Notes under the pieces: model-generated | What the model was told of the DNA's origin: nothing | The model's input: the letters and a program-made list of their open reading frames with translations, nothing else | The model's database searches: none | IMG/VR virus record: IMGVR_UViG_3300009514_000069 | Span: 1 to 31,037 of that record | DNA: 31,037 nt | Strand: one strand, 5' to 3' | Origin: a virus | Part shown: in pieces, positions 1 to 29,710 of the stretch | Layout: every line of letters begins with the position of its first letter | Numbering within the stretch: the first letter of the stretch is position 1 | Program-made: the position numbers and the translations under genes

Positions 1-653
1 GCGGCGCGCTCGGCATCGGTCAAACGCTCGGCAACAGTGCGCGCCGCGTCACTGCCCGGCGCAACAAGGCCACACTTGGTCATGTTGCCCAGGTTGCGAA
101 TCATCGCCGTGATCGGCATGTTCTGGAGCAGAGCCGCCCAGACGTCCTTCTCGGACAGGAACTGAGTCGGGATCATCTCCCGAGTCAGGCCGGAACCCGT
201 GATCAACTGGACGATCTCCTTGGCAGAAGTCGCCTTCTTGGCCGCCTCGAACGCCTCGACGATCTCCAGACCCTCGACGGATCCCTCGTACTCGCCCTTG
301 ACGATCCAGCGGTAGAGAGCGTTGTGGCCCTCGCTGGCTGCCTTCGGCGGGTGGCACGAGTGGCGGAGGCTTTGCAGGTTCTCGTGACGGTCCGACCCGC
401 CAGCGCGACGCGGCTTGATGTGGTCGACGTCGGTAGCCGCGACGATCCGGCCAGCGGCGTGGCACTCGCGGCACAGCGGCTCCATTCGCAGGTGCCCCTT
501 GGCGAGCCTGCTCCATCGCCGCCCGTAACCGCGGGCATGCGCCGAGTCTCGCTCCCTGTCCCGCTGCCTGGCGTGACGGCGGCAGCGCGATCCCCGGGCC
601 GCCACGTCGGTGCAGCCCGGCGCCGAGCACAGCCGCGGCGGGAGGTCTGGCAC
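1..653 (-). CDS. HNH nuclease fused to a truncated TROVE (Ro60-like) domain, partial
   Basis: The reading frame is open from a GTG at 653 to the left edge, giving 217 visible residues. Residues about 9-105 are a phage-type HNH nuclease: an N-terminal Cys pair (C9, C14), a second knuckle (LCRECH at 60-65), VDHIKP with H78, ENLQSL with N92 and SCH with H101. From about residue 95 the chain becomes a TROVE domain, as in Ro60/Rsr RNA-binding ring proteins: PKAASEG, ALYRWIVKG, then VWAALLQNMPITAMIRNLGN (171-190), which closely resembles the VWKALLQEMPLTALLRNLG segment of human Ro60. The first half of a normal TROVE ring is absent and the HNH domain stands in its place. The GTG lies 2 bases after the preceding stop. 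Expected partners are DNA for HNH and misfolded or Y-like RNA for TROVE; the combined role is unknown. The C-terminal part, possibly a vWA domain, lies outside the window. Confidence 0.8.
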   Translation of the reverse strand, partial: MPDLPPRLCSAPGCTDVAARGSRCRRHARQRDRERDSAHARGYGRRWSRLAKGHLRMEPLCRECHAAGRIVAATDVDHIKPRRAGGSDRHENLQSLRHSCHPPKAASEGHNALYRWIVKGEYEGSVEGLEIVEAFEAAKKATSAKEIVQLITGSGLTREMIPTQFLSEKDVWAALLQNMPITAMIRNLGNMTKCGLVAPGSDAARTVAERLTDAERA

Positions 654-655
654 CG

Positions 656-880
656 TCAGCCCGCCCGCTTCCTTCGCCCGCGGCTGAACTCGTTGGCGGC
701 CGAGCACGTCGCGAAGTGACTCACCATCGCGGCGCGGTTGCGCTCGCAGACGGGATCTCCGGGGCCGAGCCCATCCACGTTGTAGACCGGGGGCCGCGGG
801 TCGAGAGGGATCTTCTTCCCGTCCGGGTCGGTCGCCCACACGATGGACAGCCCACAGCCTCGGCACACCGATCGCTTCAC
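656..880 (-). CDS. Small zinc-knuckle phage protein
   Basis: This 74-residue protein starts at a GTG overlapping the stop of the resolvase gene (GTGA). It opens with [20 protein letters not shown] and ends near [13 protein letters not shown], so four Cys/His positions (CxxC early, HxxxC late) could hold one zinc ion. Small proteins with this layout (CxxC, GKxxPLDP, VSHFxTC) are common in early regions of temperate phages, where they are annotated as hypothetical. Its place between a RuvC-like resolvase and an HNH-TROVE gene suggests a role near DNA processing, but no activity can be read from the sequence. Confidence 0.8.
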
Positions 881-1398
881 AGCTCCTCCTCCCTCGCCTT
901 GCGCCGCGGCGCGATGGCGTTGTTGACCCGCGCCCACTCGGCGATCCACAAGGCGTCGGCTACCGCCTGGTCCTTCACACGCGACAGCTCGACCCAGGGC
1001 CACCGCTCGCGTGCCGCGGACAGGATCGCCCGCTTCCGCGCCCCGCGTTCCTTCGGGCGCCCCTTGCCCCGCAAGGCCAGCGCCACCCACTGAGTGGGCG
1101 GCACCAGCACGGTCGGCAGGCCGAGCCCCATGCACACGCCCCGGGCGCATCCCCAGGATGCGCCGAAGCTGAACGAGGCCGGTCGACCTTCCCCCGGCCG
1201 TGATCGCACCATCTCGATCGCCACCAGAAGGCGTGACACCCCGAGCGCGGCCGCGGGCTCCGCGAGAACCTCGACGAGCCGCGACGGGTCGCCCGTGTCG
1301 ACGATTGCACCGCCCACGTGGGGGCCGTTGATCCAGGCCACCGCCCCAGTCTTCCCCGGGTCGACCCCCAGCACGCACGGCGCGTCCTCCCAGACCAT
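877..1398 (-). CDS. RuvC-like Holliday junction resolvase
   Basis: A 173-residue protein of the RNase H-fold resolvase family that cleaves branched DNA such as four-way junctions during phage recombination and before packaging. The acidic catalytic set is visible: D13 in [12 protein letters not shown]62 in VAIEMV, and D143 and D148 in [15 protein letters not shown]. Length is close to bacterial RuvC (about 170). The ATG at 1398 overlaps the stop of the replication-type gene (TGATG); an in-frame GTG one codon upstream is the alternative. There is no RuvA/RuvB partner here, as is usual for phage resolvases. The fold assignment is firm; substrate preference is inferred. Confidence 0.9.
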
Positions 1399-2672
1399 CA
1401 CCCAGTCGCCTCCTGCCGCCGCTCGAGCTCCTGCAATGTCTCGCGCAGTCGCTCAACCTGCTCGGGGTCGGGGGGCCACCTCGCCCCCGAGCGTTTCCAC
1501 CGCCCCCGCAGGTCCGAGGCGATCCACTCGCGGTCGCCCTCCTTCGCAGCCAGCCATCGCTCCGCGCTCTCCAGGAGCATCGAGAGCACGGTGTGGCGCA
1601 CCGAGAGCTCCTCTCCCGGGCGCTGCCGGGTGGCGCGGTCCTCCTGCTCGCGCCATCGCGTCGCCGCCTCGAGGCGATCGCCCCACCGCAGCGGATCGCA
1701 GATCGTCACGACCTCGCTGGAGCGGTCGCGGCCCTCGGGCCAGCCCTCGGCGCGGAGGTCGCGAGCGAACTTCGGATCGGGGCTCGCCCTCGCCGCGGCC
1801 GCCACGAGCTGGACGTCCTCGACGAGCTCTTCGATCGGCGGGCGATCGAGCGCCTTCCACAGCTGGAGCACGCGGTTGGCATCGGCGCCGACCCGCCGCT
1901 GCAGGACGGGACGGCCGCGGATCGAATGCATGATCGTGAGCACGCCGGCGGCGCACCTCCACGGCGGATCGATGCCAGAGCCGTGCGACCACCGCGGAAG
2001 CGGGAGCGTCGGCTCTTGCGTGACCCAAGAGCGATCCTCTGGGACCTCTTCGGGTGCCGTGTGTGTGCTCAGGAGCGCCCGCGCCCCCGCAGCCGTGCCC
2101 GCGCCCGCGCTCACACACTCCGAGGTGGGTGTGGGTGTGGGTGTGGGTGTGGGGGAGGGAGAGGGTGCGGGAGGGCTCGCCGCGGCGGCGACGTGTCGAC
2201 GACGTGGCGCCGACGTGGCGCCGACGTGGCGCGGGCCGCTGGGCGCCGGGGCGGCGACGTGTCGCCGCTTCAGCTCTCCGACCGGGTCGGCGGGGCAGGC
2301 GTGCGCGGCGTCCCGGATGTCCTCGTAGCCGACTTTCGCACCGCGGCGTTCCATCTCCTTGACCAGGCGGTCGAGGACGTACTTGGGCGCGTTGTCGTAG
2401 AGGTCGTGGATGACGAGCTGGCCGTCCTCGGCGCGATCGAGGAAGCCGGCCGCCTCCAGCTCCACCACGAGGGCCTCGGGCTCCCCCTCCCACCCGAGGT
2501 GGTACTCGAGCTCGATAGCGTCACCGACCACCGGGTCGCCCTCTGCGTAGGCGAGGTGCCACATCAGGGTGAGACCCCCGGCCGCGACCGGACGGCAGTT
2601 CTCGACGCCTCGACGCTTCAGGCCGGCGCACAGGCGCCGGAACTTTCTATGCGAAAGCAGGGTCTCCCTCAC
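1398..2672 (-). CDS. Replication-initiator-like protein with repeat-rich linker
   Basis: A 424-residue protein. The N-terminal third looks like a winged-helix replication or DnaD-type phage protein: [18 protein letters not shown], then [20 protein letters not shown] and [16 protein letters not shown], a wording common in early-operon phage genes. The middle (about 130-185) is low complexity, with repeated RRHVA and a run of Thr-Pro pairs encoded by a GGGTGT hexamer tract and 11-bp DNA repeats. The C-terminal half is charged and helical with no family I can name. The GTG start at 2672 has a strong AGGAGG six to seven bases upstream. Position just before a resolvase and internal iteron-like DNA repeats recall lambda O, where the origin lies inside the gene. 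The initiator role is inferred, not proven. Confidence 0.6.
2127..2155 (+). repeat. GGGTGT hexamer tract, G-quadruplex-type
   Basis: Four tandem GGGTGT units followed by a further G run give five runs of at least three G separated by TGT loops on the plus strand. This fits the classical intramolecular G-quadruplex pattern. On the minus strand it encodes the Thr-Pro linker of the replication-initiator-like protein, in frame because the unit is six bases. Confidence 0.85.
2187..2264. repeat. Iteron-like cluster of CGACGTG repeats, candidate origin
   Basis: Three perfect tandem copies of CGACGTGGCGC lie at 2200-2210, 2211-2221 and 2222-2232. They are flanked by two identical 12-mers GGCGACGTGTCG at 2187-2198 and 2253-2264. 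The five CGACGTG cores start at 2189, 2200, 2211, 2222 and 2255, so every interval is a multiple of 11 bases, about one helical turn. Since 11 is not a multiple of three, the repeats pass through all reading frames, which argues for a DNA-level function. By analogy with lambda, initiator binding sites inside the initiator gene could mark the replication origin. Confidence 0.6.
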
Positions 2673-4404: not shown

Positions 4405-4922
4405 CGGCGCCTCCCCCGGAGATGCCGCCCGCGCGCGTCCTCGCCCGCGAGCTTCGCCGCAGCACGCTCGAGCGCCTGGCGGACCTCCTCGGTCCCGAAG
4501 TAGCTGCTCTTTCCACGCTGCTGCCAGAGGCGAATCGACGCCGGCGTCGTCCACCACGATCCGCTCCCGTTGTGCCACAGCTCCGGCCAGCGGATCCGCT
4601 GCACCGGGTCGCTCGACCGCGCGTCGCGCAGGATCGTCTTCGGGCTCCGCTGCAGCAGCCCGGCGAGGAGGTCGATGGGCACCAGGTCGAGCGCACAGGC
4701 CGACGTCTCGAGCAGCAGCCGACGCGTCGCCTTCACCTCGCCACGCAGCTCCCCCACCTGCTCGCTGAGCCTCTCGATCACCGCGAGGAGCCCGGGGACA
4801 TCGAGAGAGCCGGGCCCGGGGCGAGGAGGGGCGCCCCGGGCCCCATCGCGGACTGCACCGCCGTCCCGGCGTGAGGAGCCGCACGGGCCGGCGATCGCGA
4901 AGGAGCTGGCGCTCTCGGCCAT
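4401..4922 (-). CDS. Putative DNA-binding or regulatory early protein
   Basis: A 173-residue protein with ATG at 4922 and a GGAG about nine bases upstream. The N-terminal 40 residues are disordered (Gly, Pro, Arg). Residues about 45-75 carry a leucine-rich amphipathic helix (LLAVIERLSEQVGELRGEVK), which may dimerise. The segment LVPIDLLAGLLQRSPKTILR looks like a helix-turn-helix, followed by WPELWHNGSGSWWTTPASIR, a Trp-rich part. The tail is very basic. It sits between a CII-like gene and an XRE gene, so transcription control is plausible. I do not recognise a named family. Confidence 0.55.
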   Translation of the reverse strand: MAESASSFAIAGPCGSSRRDGGAVRDGARGAPPRPGPGSLDVPGLLAVIERLSEQVGELRGEVKATRRLLLETSACALDLVPIDLLAGLLQRSPKTILRDARSSDPVQRIRWPELWHNGSGSWWTTPASIRLWQQRGKSSYFGTEEVRQALERAAAKLAGEDARGRHLRGRRR

Positions 4923-4927
4923 CAGCG

Positions 4928-5428
4928 TCAGCTCCGCTCCCTACTACTCTGATCACGGACATCCACGAGGCGTGCCTCCAGGCGATAGATGCGATTGCGA
5001 AGCTCGCGGGTCTCCCGGAGGATCGCCTCCACTTCGGCCGGCGTCACGCGGCCGTCGTCGAGAGCCACCTCGGCCTCGACGAGGACGCGCCCGGCGGCGC
5101 CGGCGACCGCTATCACGGCGTGCATCAAGCCCTCCTCGACACCACCGACGTCCCCCGGGTCGATCACGACCAGGCCGAGCTGCTCGGCGACGAAGCACAC
5201 GGGGCCGATTGCCTTCTGTCGGCCCTGCTGACACAGCAACGCCGCGCGCGTGAAGCGCAGCAGCTGGTAGGCCGGCCCCGGGCGCTCCGCCTGGGGCTCC
5301 CCCCACGCCTGCACCCGGCGCTCCGAGCACCCGAGCTCGGCGGCGATCTCCGGCGCGTGACCCCAGGTGGCCTCCTGGGTGACGAGCGCCGCCGCGCGGA
5401 GCAGCGATCTCGGGCCCCGGCCGCTCAC
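4928..5428 (-). CDS. Phage CII-like regulatory protein (putative)
   Basis: A 166-residue protein beginning at a GTG that overlaps the upstream stop (GTGA). In-frame ATG codons slightly upstream are alternatives. Residues about 8-45 carry a winged or simple HTH: LLRAAALVTQEATWGHAPEI, AAELGCSERRVQAWGEPQ. The middle (LLRFTRAALLCQQG, FVAEQLGLVVI) and the helical C-terminus rich in Arg and Glu resemble the general plan of 'phage regulatory protein CII' (CP76-like) proteins: HTH followed by an oligomerising helical part. The family call is tentative because only the overall layout matches. Confidence 0.5.
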   Translation of the reverse strand: MSGRGPRSLLRAAALVTQEATWGHAPEIAAELGCSERRVQAWGEPQAERPGPAYQLLRFTRAALLCQQGRQKAIGPVCFVAEQLGLVVIDPGDVGGVEEGLMHAVIAVAGAAGRVLVEAEVALDDGRVTPAEVEAILRETRELRNRIYRLEARLVDVRDQSSRERS

Positions 5429-5691
5429 GCCTCCCATCCCTCCCATCCCCCTGACGGCGGCATCGACCCGTGCCGCTCGAGCGCCAGGGCGATCAACATG
5501 GTGATCCGGGCACGGCGCCTCTCGCCGATCCCCTTGAGCTTGCCGAGCGTCCCCTCCTGCTCCATCCGCTCGACCCGCCACAGCGTCGTCGCCGGATCGA
5601 GACCGGCGGCGAGCAGCGCCGTCGAGATGTCACTCCACACGGGCCACGAGCGCAGCTCGAGGATCGTCGTCGATAGGGTGGGGGCGCTCAT
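5425..5691 (-). CDS. Small early protein, function unknown
   Basis: An 88-residue protein starting MSAPTLSTTILELRSWPVWS at an ATG that overlaps the stop of the patatin gene (ATGA). The segment LDPATTLWRVERMEQEGTLG followed by KLKGIGERRRARITMLIA contains a GIGERR turn reminiscent of a helix-hairpin-helix, but too little remains to call it. It is basic in the middle, acidic and Gly/Trp-rich at the end, and soluble. Coupled translation with the patatin upstream and the CII-like gene downstream is expected. Confidence 0.6.
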   Translation of the reverse strand: MSAPTLSTTILELRSWPVWSDISTALLAAGLDPATTLWRVERMEQEGTLGKLKGIGERRRARITMLIALALERHGSMPPSGGWEGWEA

Positions 5692-6611
5692 GCCCCCTCG
5701 CTCCCGAGCCACCGGCGCAGAGCCGCCGCGCCGGCGACCTCGAGGGCCTCTGCGTGCTTCGCGACGGTCCGGAACGACGTCGCCTTGACGCCCGGCGGCG
5801 CGATGACGCGCACGATGCGCGGCCACAGCGCCCGAGGCACGTGCGATCGGTTGGCGGCCGCCACGGCGATCGAGACGAGACGCGCCGCGAGGTCCCAGGG
5901 CCAGCGGCCCGGCGGCTCACGGTCGGCCATCATCTCGAGCCGCGTGTCGACACGCACGCCGAGGACCGTCTCGGGCGGTACGCGCCGGCGGTCGAAAACG
6001 TCGATCGGCATGTTCCAGGTCAGGCCACCGTCGACCAGGCGCAGGCCGCCGGCGACGACCACGGGCTCCCACCACAACGGGATCGCCATGGACGCGAGCA
6101 CGGCCTCCCAGACCGGCGACCCGGAGAGCCCCATGGGGCCGAGGAGGATGGGCCTACCTCGCGTCACGTCCGTCGCCGTGACGTGGAGCAGCCGCCCGCG
6201 CTCGGCGAGCTGCACGAACGTGACTTCGGGCGGGTAGCCCGAGCGTGCCCCCACCCGCGCGACCATCTCGCGCAGCCAGCGGCGAGGCTGCTCGAGGCTC
6301 CGGAAGCCGCACCGGCGCATCATCCGGATCGGCGAACGCCTCCCGGCCAGCTTCTCCCAGGGGGCGGCGGCGAGCTCGGCGTCGATCTCCGCCGCCGTCG
6401 CCCCAAGGGCCCCCAGCGCCGCGAGGATCGCACCGGCGCTCGTCCCCGACCACTCGTTGACGCGCCCGAGCACACCCCAGGCGTCGAGCTGGCGCACGAT
6501 GGGCACGTACGAGACCCCGAGCACGCCCCCGCCTTCGAACGCGAGGCGCGTCACATCGGCCACCTTCGCTGGTGCCCCCGGGCGCTCGCCGTTGCTGCGC
6601 GGATCGACCAT
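5688..6611 (-). CDS. Patatin-like phospholipase
   Basis: A 307-residue enzyme of the patatin family, which hydrolyses acyl esters of membrane lipids with a Ser-Asp dyad. The oxyanion loop FEGGGVLGVSYV (25-36), nucleophile S58 in SGTSAGA, and D194 in VDGGLTWNMP are all present and in the usual order. Residue 30 is Val where many patatins have a positively charged oxyanion residue. No signal peptide or membrane segment is seen, so it probably acts on the inner leaflet from the cytoplasm. The ATG at 6611 overlaps the DUF2303 stop (TGATG); a GTG one codon upstream is possible. In an early phage operon it could remodel membrane lipid, counter a defence, or kill on induction; none of these is shown by sequence. 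Confidence 0.88.
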   Translation of the reverse strand: MVDPRSNGERPGAPAKVADVTRLAFEGGGVLGVSYVPIVRQLDAWGVLGRVNEWSGTSAGAILAALGALGATAAEIDAELAAAPWEKLAGRRSPIRMMRRCGFRSLEQPRRWLREMVARVGARSGYPPEVTFVQLAERGRLLHVTATDVTRGRPILLGPMGLSGSPVWEAVLASMAIPLWWEPVVVAGGLRLVDGGLTWNMPIDVFDRRRVPPETVLGVRVDTRLEMMADREPPGRWPWDLAARLVSIAVAAANRSHVPRALWPRIVRVIAPPGVKATSFRTVAKHAEALEVAGAAALRRWLGSEGA

Positions 6612-7354
6612 CACCGGAGCACCGCTAGGCCCTCGGTCACGCGGCCGGCGAGAAATCCAGCCACGTTGCTGATGGCCTCGAGCTCCCAGAGCCCGTCACA
6701 CACCAAGTGCAGAGAGATGACGAACCCGCCCTCGCCCTTCTTCGCCCGCAGCAGGTACTGCGAGACCGGCTGCGTCACCTCGGGGAAGGTCCGGTAGGGA
6801 GCGAGCTGCCACGTCGGTGAGACCGTCTCGCGGGCCAGGCGAACGGTCCCGGCCTTCACCGCCATCTCCTGGCTGATCCCGTCGTCGGCCACCCTCACCT
6901 CGTCCTGCGTCGACACCCGCGCCAGGAGCTCGAGGAGCTCGGCGCGCTGCCCCGAATCGGAGCACGCCGTGCGCAGGTAGATCTGCGCCTCCTCGAGGCT
7001 CCACCACTGGCCGAACCGGTCGAGCTGGCGCGGCGGCGTCGCCTTCGCACGCACGAGACACTCGCGCTTGCGCTCGCGCCGCTTCAGCGGGCCGAGCAAC
7101 GACACGCTCGTCGGCGACTCCACCCACACCAGGTGACGCGACGGGTCTCCCTCGCCGCGCTCGTCGACCAAGGCATCGTCGATGTCCGCATCCAGGAAGC
7201 CGACGAAACCCTCGAGCGTCGAGAGGACGATGGGGTCCGCGAGGGGCTCCGCCGGCGGCAGGTAGGCGGGCAGCGTGCTGTACTCGATTCCGCCGAGAAC
7301 GATCGGCTTCGCCTGCGTGAGCTCGCCGATGTACTCCATCGCTTCTCGGATCAC
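6611..7354 (-). CDS. DUF2303 (YfdQ-like) family protein
   Basis: A 247-residue protein matching the family of E. coli prophage YfdQ. The typical wording is present: LVWVESPTSVSLLGPLK early, WWSLEEAQIYL in the middle, VADDGISQEMAVKAGTV, then PYRTFPEVTQPVSQYLLRAK and a hydrophobic end near the C-terminus. The biochemical role of the family is unknown; it is widespread in early operons of lambdoid and related phages. The GTG start at 7354 overlaps the upstream stop (GTGA). The neighbour upstream, a 'replication terminator'-like protein, is a frequent companion in such operons, which supports the call. Confidence 0.85.
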   Translation of the reverse strand: MIREAMEYIGELTQAKPIVLGGIEYSTLPAYLPPAEPLADPIVLSTLEGFVGFLDADIDDALVDERGEGDPSRHLVWVESPTSVSLLGPLKRRERKRECLVRAKATPPRQLDRFGQWWSLEEAQIYLRTACSDSGQRAELLELLARVSTQDEVRVADDGISQEMAVKAGTVRLARETVSPTWQLAPYRTFPEVTQPVSQYLLRAKKGEGGFVISLHLVCDGLWELEAISNVAGFLAGRVTEGLAVLR

Positions 7355-7698
7355 GAGGCACCTCCGTTCGGCGTCGCCGCGGCGAAGAGGTCGACCTGCC
7401 GCGGGTCGTGCTCGTAGGCCACCAGGCGCCGCCCGGTGCCCATGCGCGATAGAAACACCCGGCTCGTCGAGGCCACCGGGCCCGCGAGCTTCGTCGAGAC
7501 CGTCGTCTCGACCTTCGCCGAGCTGCGGTCTCCGTCCGGCCGGAACGCGACCTTGATCGTGATCGAGCGGACCTTCTCCGGCTCCGTATTGGGGTCGTCA
7601 ATGTTGTCGACGACGCGCTGGAGCTCGTCGGCGAAGCGCTCGCGAAGCGCGCCGTGCGCGAACCCCTCGAGCGTCAGCTCTCCCTCTGCGATGTTCAT
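7351..7698 (-). CDS. Phage 'replication terminator protein'-like
   Basis: A 115-residue protein starting MNIAEGELTLEGFAHGALRE. The pattern of an N-terminal LxGFAxGALxERF, then VDNIDDPNTEPEKVRSITIK, AFRPDGDRSSAKVETTVSTK and LAGPVASTSRVFLSR corresponds to small phage proteins usually annotated 'replication terminator protein', though that name has little experimental basis in phages. The ATG at 7698 overlaps the upstream stop (ATGA) and has GGGAGGAG upstream. It is likely co-translated with the DUF2303 gene, and the two may act together on an unknown target. Confidence 0.75.
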   Translation of the reverse strand: MNIAEGELTLEGFAHGALRERFADELQRVVDNIDDPNTEPEKVRSITIKVAFRPDGDRSSAKVETTVSTKLAGPVASTSRVFLSRMGTGRRLVAYEHDPRQVDLFAAATPNGGAS

Positions 7699-8009
7699 CT
7701 CGCTCCTCCCTGCTGCTCCGGTAGGGCGCCGAGCAGCCCGCTGCAGCCCTTGCAGGTGCAGAGCCGTTCGGCGGCGTTCTCGACGATGGCGACGGACCCC
7801 GGCAGGACCTGGCGGTAGCACTCGACGCACCACCACCAGGAGCCAGGCGTGACCGGCGGGACGGCGTGGCGCGGGTGCCCGCGCGGCGCCGTCCCTTCCC
7901 CCTCAGCGGGGGCGTCAGACGGGGCACCATGCGACGGAGTCGGCGGCACCGCCTCCTCCACCTCGCCCCTGTGGCATCGGTAGAACGGGATGAGCCCCGG
8001 GATCGTCAT
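7695..8009 (-). CDS. Small Cys-rich zinc-knuckle protein
   Basis: A 104-residue protein starting MTIPGLIPFYRCHRGE at an ATG overlapping the upstream stop (ATGA). The C-terminal half has WWWCVECYRQVLPG and LCTCKGCSGLLGALP, so two CxxC pairs about 25 residues apart could hold a zinc ion. The middle is Pro- and Gly-rich and probably flexible. No enzymatic motif is seen. It belongs to a run of three consecutive small proteins with CxxC pairs. Confidence 0.65.
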   Translation of the reverse strand: MTIPGLIPFYRCHRGEVEEAVPPTPSHGAPSDAPAEGEGTAPRGHPRHAVPPVTPGSWWWCVECYRQVLPGSVAIVENAAERLCTCKGCSGLLGALPEQQGGAR

Positions 8010-15002: not shown

Positions 15003-16103
15003 GTGACGAAGGACCGGCGACGCTCCATCCGCGAGCTCCCCTCGGGGCGCTACCAGGTGCGGATGCGCCGAGCCGGGCAGACTATCGCGCAGACCTTCAC
15101 GACCCTCCCACAGGCCGAGCGCTTCCGCGACCTGGTCGAGGTCGACGGGGCGCTGAGGCGCCACGGCCTCCCCGGGATCACCCAGGAGCGCCGGCGGCTC
15201 GTCGACCTGGTCGAGGCCTTCCGCGAGGAGGCAGACGCGCGGGCCCTCGAGGGGAGCTTGCGCGCGTCGACGGCCGAGGCCTACCGCAAGCAGACGGCCG
15301 GCCCCCTCAAGTGGCTCCTCGAATCCGGGCGAGAAACCGTGAACGCCGCTGAGCTCGACGACCGCGCCGTCGCCGCCTACGTCGCCTGGCGCCGCGGCCG
15401 GCGGCTCAGCGACGACGCGCGGCGGCCGGCGGGCAGCGTCCAAGTGCGCAAGGATCTGGTGATGCTGCGTCGCGTCTACGGGTGGGCCGCCGTCGAGCCG
15501 GCGTGGAGAATCCCGCGCCACCTCCCCAGGAGCACCGGCGGCAAGCGCGTCGTCCCGCGGACCCAGCTGTTCGCCTGGCTCGACGCGATGCCCCGGGGCT
15601 CCCTGCAGCGCACCGTCGCCGAGCTCGCGATCGCGACCGGCATGCGCCCGGGCGACATCTACGCCCTCGAGTTCGACCAGGTCGACCTCGCCAACAAGCT
15701 GATCACCTTCGCGGCGGCGAAGACGGGGCGCGCCCAGGTCGTCCCGATCGGCGACGAGCTCCACGCCCACCTCGAGGCATGGCTCCGCGAGCGCATGCCC
15801 GCGATCACCCGCCGGCTCTTCCACCTCCGCGGCCTCCCCCTCACCGACCAGACGCTCCGCTCCCGCTTCCGCACGGCCAGCAAGGCAGCGGCGATAGAGC
15901 CACCGCTCCAGTACCTCGGCGTCGCGAGGAACGCCGTCATCGCCTGGCTCCTCGAGGCCGGGCAAGATCCCTACGCTGTGGCCCGCCTCGTGGGGCACAG
16001 CCAGCTCGCGACGACCATGGGCTACCAGAGGGCCTACCTGCCCCTCGACGCGCTCAGGAGGGCGACAGGGGCGCTCTCGGACATGCGGAGGGGCGACACG
16101 TGA
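15003..16103 (+). CDS. int: Tyrosine integrase
   Basis: A 366-residue site-specific recombinase that joins phage attP with the bacterial attB. Order: arm-binding-like N-terminus (1-60, basic, strands), core-binding SAM-like domain (about 62-165), catalytic domain (about 180-366). Catalytic residues are R215 in TGMRPGDIYALEF, K240 in AAKTGRAQVVPI, R309 in LGVARNAV, H332 in VGHSQLATTMGY and nucleophile Y341. The first His of the usual HxxR box is Gly306. It starts at GTG 15003. Its target is probably the tRNA-Arg(CCU) gene whose 3' half lies in attP at 17299-17348. Confidence 0.93.
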   Translation: MTKDRRRSIRELPSGRYQVRMRRAGQTIAQTFTTLPQAERFRDLVEVDGALRRHGLPGITQERRRLVDLVEAFREEADARALEGSLRASTAEAYRKQTAGPLKWLLESGRETVNAAELDDRAVAAYVAWRRGRRLSDDARRPAGSVQVRKDLVMLRRVYGWAAVEPAWRIPRHLPRSTGGKRVVPRTQLFAWLDAMPRGSLQRTVAELAIATGMRPGDIYALEFDQVDLANKLITFAAAKTGRAQVVPIGDELHAHLEAWLRERMPAITRRLFHLRGLPLTDQTLRSRFRTASKAAAIEPPLQYLGVARNAVIAWLLEAGQDPYAVARLVGHSQLATTMGYQRAYLPLDALRRATGALSDMRRGDT

Positions 16104-29434: not shown

Positions 29435-29710
29435 TCAGCCCTCCTTGCGCCGGGCCCTTGGCCTGCGCCGCTTCGGCTTCTCGCCCAGCTCCTGCGGCCC
29501 CTTCGCCGGCGGCGACTCCGCAGGGCCGGGCGATTCCTCCTCCGCCGGCGGCGTCTCCGCCGGGCCGGGCGATTCCTCCTCCGCCGGCGGGAACGCCGCC
29601 AGCCCGAGCTCGACCATGCGCGCGGCGCGCACTTCGTCGACGTCGACGACATCGCCGGCGAGGCGCTTTCCCCGTTCCTTCGAGAGCACCACCTGTACGA
29701 GCGTCGTCAT
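29435..29710 (-). CDS. Pro/Glu repeat protein next to tail tube genes
   Basis: A 91-residue protein starting MTTLVQVVLSKERGKRLAGD. Residues 1-40 form a small domain with VVDVDEVRAARMVELGLAAF, typical of short phage structural proteins. Then two copies of a 13-residue unit, PPAEEESPGPAET and PPAEEESPGPAES, and a strongly basic tail (KPKRRRPRARRKEG). The repeats are flexible and acidic, the end basic. It could be a virion linker or scaffold; role unknown. Confidence 0.65.
   Translation of the reverse strand: MTTLVQVVLSKERGKRLAGDVVDVDEVRAARMVELGLAAFPPAEEESPGPAETPPAEEESPGPAESPPAKGPQELGEKPKRRRPRARRKEG
29504..29590. repeat. Two tandem 39-bp repeats plus a partial third
   Basis: The unit begins CGCCGGCGG at 29504, 29543 and 29582; the first two copies differ at only a few bases. 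It is in frame and encodes the 13-residue Pro/Glu unit, so copy number may vary between phages. Confidence 0.75.

Follow-up and report, generated by a model that had tools for sequence, protein, structure and literature searches.

The array of 11-bp repeats in the replication initiator gene of this phage is, with a probability of about 0.83, the initiator-binding part of its replication origin, located, as in phage lambda, within the sequence that codes for the initiator's own linker. The repeats occupy a defined position in the gene, keep an 11-bp phase, exceed chance expectation and recur across the initiator family. From this layout we infer that the encoded protein binds them, that the DNA is unwound at an adjacent short-period tract and that the region acts as an origin.

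The initiator gene and its genomic context

The window (the whole stretch of DNA analysed) is a viral record of 31,037 bp with 70% GC. It probably derives from a temperate tailed phage, since it encodes a tyrosine integrase (15003-16103), a CII-like regulator, a RuvC-like resolvase and a DNA adenine methyltransferase. The features that matter to the following analyses are:

1398-2672, minus strand: replication initiator gene, 424 aa, GTG start, with an N-terminal winged helix, a linker and a helical C-terminal part
2343-2672, minus strand: region coding the N-terminal winged-helix domain (residues 1-110), presumed iteron-binding domain (AlphaFold2, Foldseek)
2184-2264, no strand assigned: iteron array in the linker-coding region, 11-bp units, consensus GGCGCCGACGT
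2189-2195, plus strand: iteron core 1, CGACGTG
2200-2206, plus strand: iteron core 2, CGACGTG
2211-2217, plus strand: iteron core 3, CGACGTG
2222-2228, plus strand: iteron core 4, CGACGTG
2255-2261, plus strand: iteron core 5, CGACGTG, in phase, three turns from core 4
2125-2171, no strand assigned: strand-asymmetric short-period tract, (GTGGGT)n on the plus strand and (CCCACA)n on the coding strand (TRF period 6, score 59)
1398-2057, minus strand: region coding the helical C-terminal part, presumed helicase or loader contact (AlphaFold2, relatives)

The initial annotation had placed the repeats inside a replication gene, and several lines of evidence agree with this. Residues 2-110 match phrog_9474, "replication initiation protein" (profile search, E = 5.1e-7), and a GC3 of 0.86 on the gene's strand speaks in favour of coding there. 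The AlphaFold2 model of the N-terminal domain is a confident winged helix (mean pLDDT 91.9, pTM 0.83), the only one modelled with confidence in the 424-aa protein. Its best structural matches in Foldseek are predicted viral proteins (E down to 3e-5), two of which are named replisome organizer and primosomal protein; against the PDB, Foldseek returned weak winged-helix (MarR-like) matches alone (best E 0.06). The C-terminal part, modelled without an alignment, reached a mean pLDDT of 54 with confidence only at its very end, too poor for use, and the corresponding region of the relatives matches O-like or DnaD-like families. The downstream neighbour of the gene encodes the RuvC-like resolvase, followed by an HNH ORF, and no helicase or loader gene was recognised adjoining the initiator gene in the window; the initiators of the relatives commonly adjoin genes for a DnaC-like loader or a DnaB helicase.

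The last 60 residues encoded by the HNH endonuclease ORF (3-866, minus strand), which is cut by the window edge, resemble a portion of a TROVE (Ro60-like) domain (Pfam, 1e-10), a case of fusion or insertion. A patatin-like phospholipase (5688-6614, minus strand; Pfam, 3.5e-24) is encoded in the phage early region.

An 11-bp iteron array in the linker-coding sequence

According to the initial annotation, five CGACGTG cores followed each other in 11-bp phase. A motif search of the window found all of them exactly there, on the plus strand, starting at 2189, 2200, 2211, 2222 and 2255. The core-to-core spacings are thus 11, 11, 11 and 33 bp, the last being three times 11, and the 15-mer around core 5 (GGCGGCGACGTGTCG) is identical to the one around core 1. 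TRF independently reported an 11-bp array at 2184-2232 (score 77), which among all periods ranks second in the window only to a 39-bp tandem repeat at 29500-29590 (2.3 copies, 94% matches), the strongest array of the window. The arrangement is far beyond chance: neither a period-11 array with a score >48 nor five cores within 73 bp occurred in any of 200 dinucleotide-preserving shuffles, and the lag-11 count (19 six-mer pairs) was matched in about 1 of 5000 trials in which the protein was fixed and the codons were resampled from the phage's own usage. Elsewhere in the window CGACGTG is not enriched (17 sites versus 13.2 expected).

The array corresponds to codons 137-163 approximately and the DNA-binding domain ends near residue 104-110, which puts the repeats in the linker between the winged-helix domain and the helical C-terminal part. 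The period had been described as incompatible with repetition of the protein. This holds for the 11-bp period, which is not a codon multiple, but not for its triple: three units span 11 codons (33 bp), and three of the cores (2189, 2222 and 2255) share one frame and encode RHV each time. Since the copies at 2200 and 2211 fall in the other two frames, the repetition in the window is primarily in the DNA and the 11-residue echo is a by-product.

Relatives of the initiator

Direct searches with the full protein or the repeat retrieved no relatives from viral contigs, genome contigs or named phages. Relatives were reached only through a conserved neighbour gene, followed by profile and protein searches. 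One contig found via the neighbour gene, L005, is a phage contig whose initiator has an N-terminus 32% identical to that of the window. The final set comprised 27 homologues, the window's own gene included, from Planctomycetota group genomes, a Patescibacteria bin and named phages of Myxococcus, Paenibacillus, Faecalibacterium, Roseburia, Pseudomonas and cyanobacteria. Myxococcus phage Mx9 is one of these relatives. Some members are kin (nd4, Lagaffe and Shimadzu; L040, L042 and L043), which brings the number of independent cases slightly under 27; L044, a near-identical copy, was excluded from the count.

The contig L004, which had been reached through the RuvC-like gene, has no homologous initiator; this phage contig carries an unrelated 11-bp tandem array at 4916-4960 (unit GCCCCTTATAA). 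In the window, phrog_1029 and phrog_997, "replication terminator", adjoin each other (6611-7836, minus strand), and the two genes are neighbours in L005 as well, and likewise in phages of Paenibacillus, Aeribacillus and Blautia. Phages with a phrog_1029 neighbour mostly encode other initiators and were used as a small comparison, in which, among six other replication genes, only that of Javan585 gave multiple 6-mer pairs at lag 11. Geobacillus phage PK5.2 (L012) has a different, DnaD-like initiator gene with repeats in its middle (200-440), made up of TGGCCAAAAATGGCC-like units about 30 bp apart and then an AT-rich run. The same phage carries a strong 11-bp array outside the initiator (6732-6800), at and beyond the end of an ArpU-like regulator gene.

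Place and phase of the repeats across homologues

In each homologue, the 300 bp after the domain were scanned and 6-mer pairs were counted at every lag from 7 to 45. Lags 11 and 22 are the strongest of this range: lag-11 pairs occur in 19 of the 27 homologues versus 5.7±2.2 in synonymous (codon-preserving) shuffles, and lag-22 pairs in 14 of 27 versus 3.7±1.7. By comparison, a lag-11 pair is found in 7.7% of 375 other 300-bp tiles from the same loci. Seven of the homologues were recovered once the hypothesis had been set, and six of them agree with it. Within the scanned stretch, eight of the 27 homologues have no lag-11 pair; L016 has a 10-bp repeat and L017 repeats of about 20 bp.

The repeated units themselves differ widely. 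The L005 linker contains an 11-bp array with a wholly different unit (CTAGCCAACGA), and other cores are GCATGCAACCC in L027, AAACCGTTCAC in Microcystis phage Mae-JY24, GTGCGCACGCC in L039 and GCCGAACGGCG in L052. Many cores contain a palindrome (TTACGTAA, GTGCGCAC, GCATGC, ACGT) and others do not, so each turn may carry either a monomer or a dimer. According to the initial annotation, related phages that retain the protein while losing the repeats or their phase would have refuted the idea. The comparison points the opposite way: place and phase are conserved in most homologues, while the core sequence changes from phage to phage, with a new core in nearly each of them.

Constraint at the DNA level

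Closely related pairs allow the repeats to be compared base by base. L040 and L042 are 72% identical, and in four of their 11-bp units the GGAA core is kept at 16 of 16 positions and the spacers at 8 of 28 (P = 2.7e-6, with a core boundary picked after looking, at which a scan of all 11 phases peaks). The GGAA core lies in all three codon phases, and therefore selection on the protein is not easily the cause. The tract just behind the iterons (TACAACCTAAACCCTTACA...) is similarly preserved, with 29 of 30 bases kept versus 72% for the gene. In the closer pair L043/L044, the four changes in the array all fall in spacers (P = 0.036). The L040/L042 pattern indicates that the iterons are constrained as DNA in this pair.

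The short-period tract beside the iterons

In the coding direction, the tract of the window lies 3' of the iterons. It contains two adjacent G-quadruplex motifs on the plus strand (2127-2147 and 2151-2171, G4 scan), directly beside the iterons, and has a purine skew of 0.58. Tracts with a period of 5, 6 or 12 bp follow the iteron region on the coding strand in at least 18 of the 27 homologues, a count read by eye from the per-homologue table. They are usually strand-asymmetric, with units such as CCTAA, CCAGAG, GAGAA, TCTCCA and CCTACCAA beside the CCCACA of the window; purine tracts rich in A occur in phiPSA1 and L017, and L005 has an A-rich stretch. The tract of the window is a candidate unwinding or single-strand-binding element. 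A role for its G-quadruplex motifs is possible, but the tracts of most relatives are not G-rich.

The window tract has about 70% GC in the sampled stretch and is not AT-rich. No AT-rich or low-stability stretch was detected beside the array, and the duplex stability of the linker is not among the lowest in the window. This lack of thermal weakness is the main oddity of the putative origin. Cumulative GC skew, which had been proposed as a check, gave no origin signal: it shows no clear turn in the fragment and none at the array.

Comparison with known systems

The closest precedent is lambda, whose origin lies inside the initiator gene, with four iterons in the middle of gene O (PMC7466680). 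As in ori-lambda and the lambdoid Stx phages, the repeats of the window are located within the initiator gene, directly behind the part that codes for the N-terminal DNA-binding domain, and are followed by a strand-asymmetric tract; in several relatives, a helicase-recruiting protein is encoded after the initiator, as in lambda. The lambda tract at the equivalent place (AAAAGAAAAAAGAAAAGATTATT) is the unwinding element (PMC7466680). The two systems differ in the repeats themselves. Those of lambda (nt 349-433 of gene O) are 18 bp long, have start-to-start distances of 20, 24 and 23 bp, about two turns, and give lags of 20, 23 and 44 in the same lag analysis, whereas the window has 11-bp units spaced by one turn. 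The window tract also differs from that of lambda in being G-rich rather than AT-rich.

The iteron plasmids RK2, F, P1 and R6K also have direct repeats, which are bound by a winged-helix initiator, as is presumed for the window. Plasmid iterons usually lie beside the rep gene and not inside it. They measure 17-22 bp, in contrast to the 11-bp units described here, and their helical phase matters, as a half-turn separation abolishes cooperativity (PMC4980987). The tract, for its part, resembles the DnaA-trio and DUE repeats of chromosomal and plasmid origins, short motifs beside initiator sites that can be held single-stranded by the initiator (PMC10797057). Here, the initiator sites are putative, the units have 5, 6 or 12 bp and single-strand binding is likewise putative.

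The phrog_9474-like relatives (Paenibacillus phage Harrison, Pseudomonas phage phiPSA1, Faecalibacterium phage FP_Lagaffe and others) have a homologous N-terminal domain and share the linker repeats and the simple tract, although the sequences of their iteron cores and tracts diverge. The literature covered, in which subscription papers were few, yielded no account of 11-bp iterons within the gene in such phages, a weak negative. The best reading is an origin of the lambda kind, a known arrangement within an initiator gene, which differs from that of lambda in its unit, one 11-bp iteron per turn.

Alternative explanations

The repeats could be sites for another protein (a repressor, a partition, packaging or host factor), or they could serve autoregulation of the initiator rather than an origin. 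Phased repeats are also used by repressors and in parS sites, and the binding specificity is here only predicted. Nevertheless, the repeats travel with the initiator family, in the linker, across very different hosts, and a short-period tract comes after them. Lambda shows the same succession, and there the precedent is the initiator's own origin. This explanation is therefore unlikely, even if it is the one that fares best among the alternatives.

A slightly less probable possibility is that slippage in a GC-rich, disordered linker produced a short tandem repeat devoid of function. The linker does hold a hexamer microsatellite as well, and short repeats are frequent in GC-rich genes. Yet slippage explains neither the recurrence of 11- and 22-bp lags in homologues with unrelated units nor the fact that a core in 11-bp phase is preserved in three codon frames even though the spacers between its copies have diverged.

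The least plausible proposal, selection for an 11-residue peptide repeat (RHV...) corresponding to 33 bp of DNA, can draw on the three in-frame RHV copies and on the 11-residue repeats also present in L005 and L027, but the peptides are unrelated from one phage to the next, the copies spaced by 11 or 22 bp fall in other frames and lag-33 pairs are not raised (seven homologues versus 7.0 in synonymous shuffles). A purely protein-level or slippage origin was consequently rejected on the homologue lag counts and the core conservation between L040 and L042.

A possible mechanism

The preferred reading thus remains an origin bound by its own initiator. The initial annotation had recognised the layout expected of initiator binding sites, and this view is strengthened by the homology of the gene to initiators and by the relatives that keep place and phase; binding itself is predicted. 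In the proposed mechanism, the N-terminal winged helix would bind each 11-bp iteron, and the protomers would line up along a single face of the helix, with one protomer for every turn, as the phasing of the sequence suggests. The assembled complex may then strain the adjacent tract, (CCCACA)n/(GGGTGT)n, which would open or stay held as a single strand, a function to which its place and its recurrence point. Finally, the C-terminal part would recruit the replicative helicase or its loader, as the relatives suggest. With a period of 11 bp, which is not divisible by 3, the repeats occupy each of the three reading frames in turn, and the linker would tolerate the peptides that they encode.

Implications for phage replication origins

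More tentatively, and with somewhat less than even confidence, these phages may represent a widespread class of origins, in which a winged-helix initiator would place one protomer per turn on 11-bp iterons carried in the three frames of its own linker and would open a strand-asymmetric repeat of 5, 6 or 12 bp that need not be AT-rich, the recognised sequence being replaced between phages while phase and layout stay the same. If such a class exists, each initiator and its sites would form a self-contained replication specificity, mutually exclusive with the others. The origins of most environmental phages are unmapped, and the signature described here (11-bp phased repeats in the initiator linker, then a short-period tract) would make it possible to locate origins by sequence alone in phages whose hosts are unrelated. 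The signature would also provide candidate origins that lack an AT-rich element in GC-rich phages, as well as many natural pairs of initiator and iteron in which to study how winged helices change their specificity.
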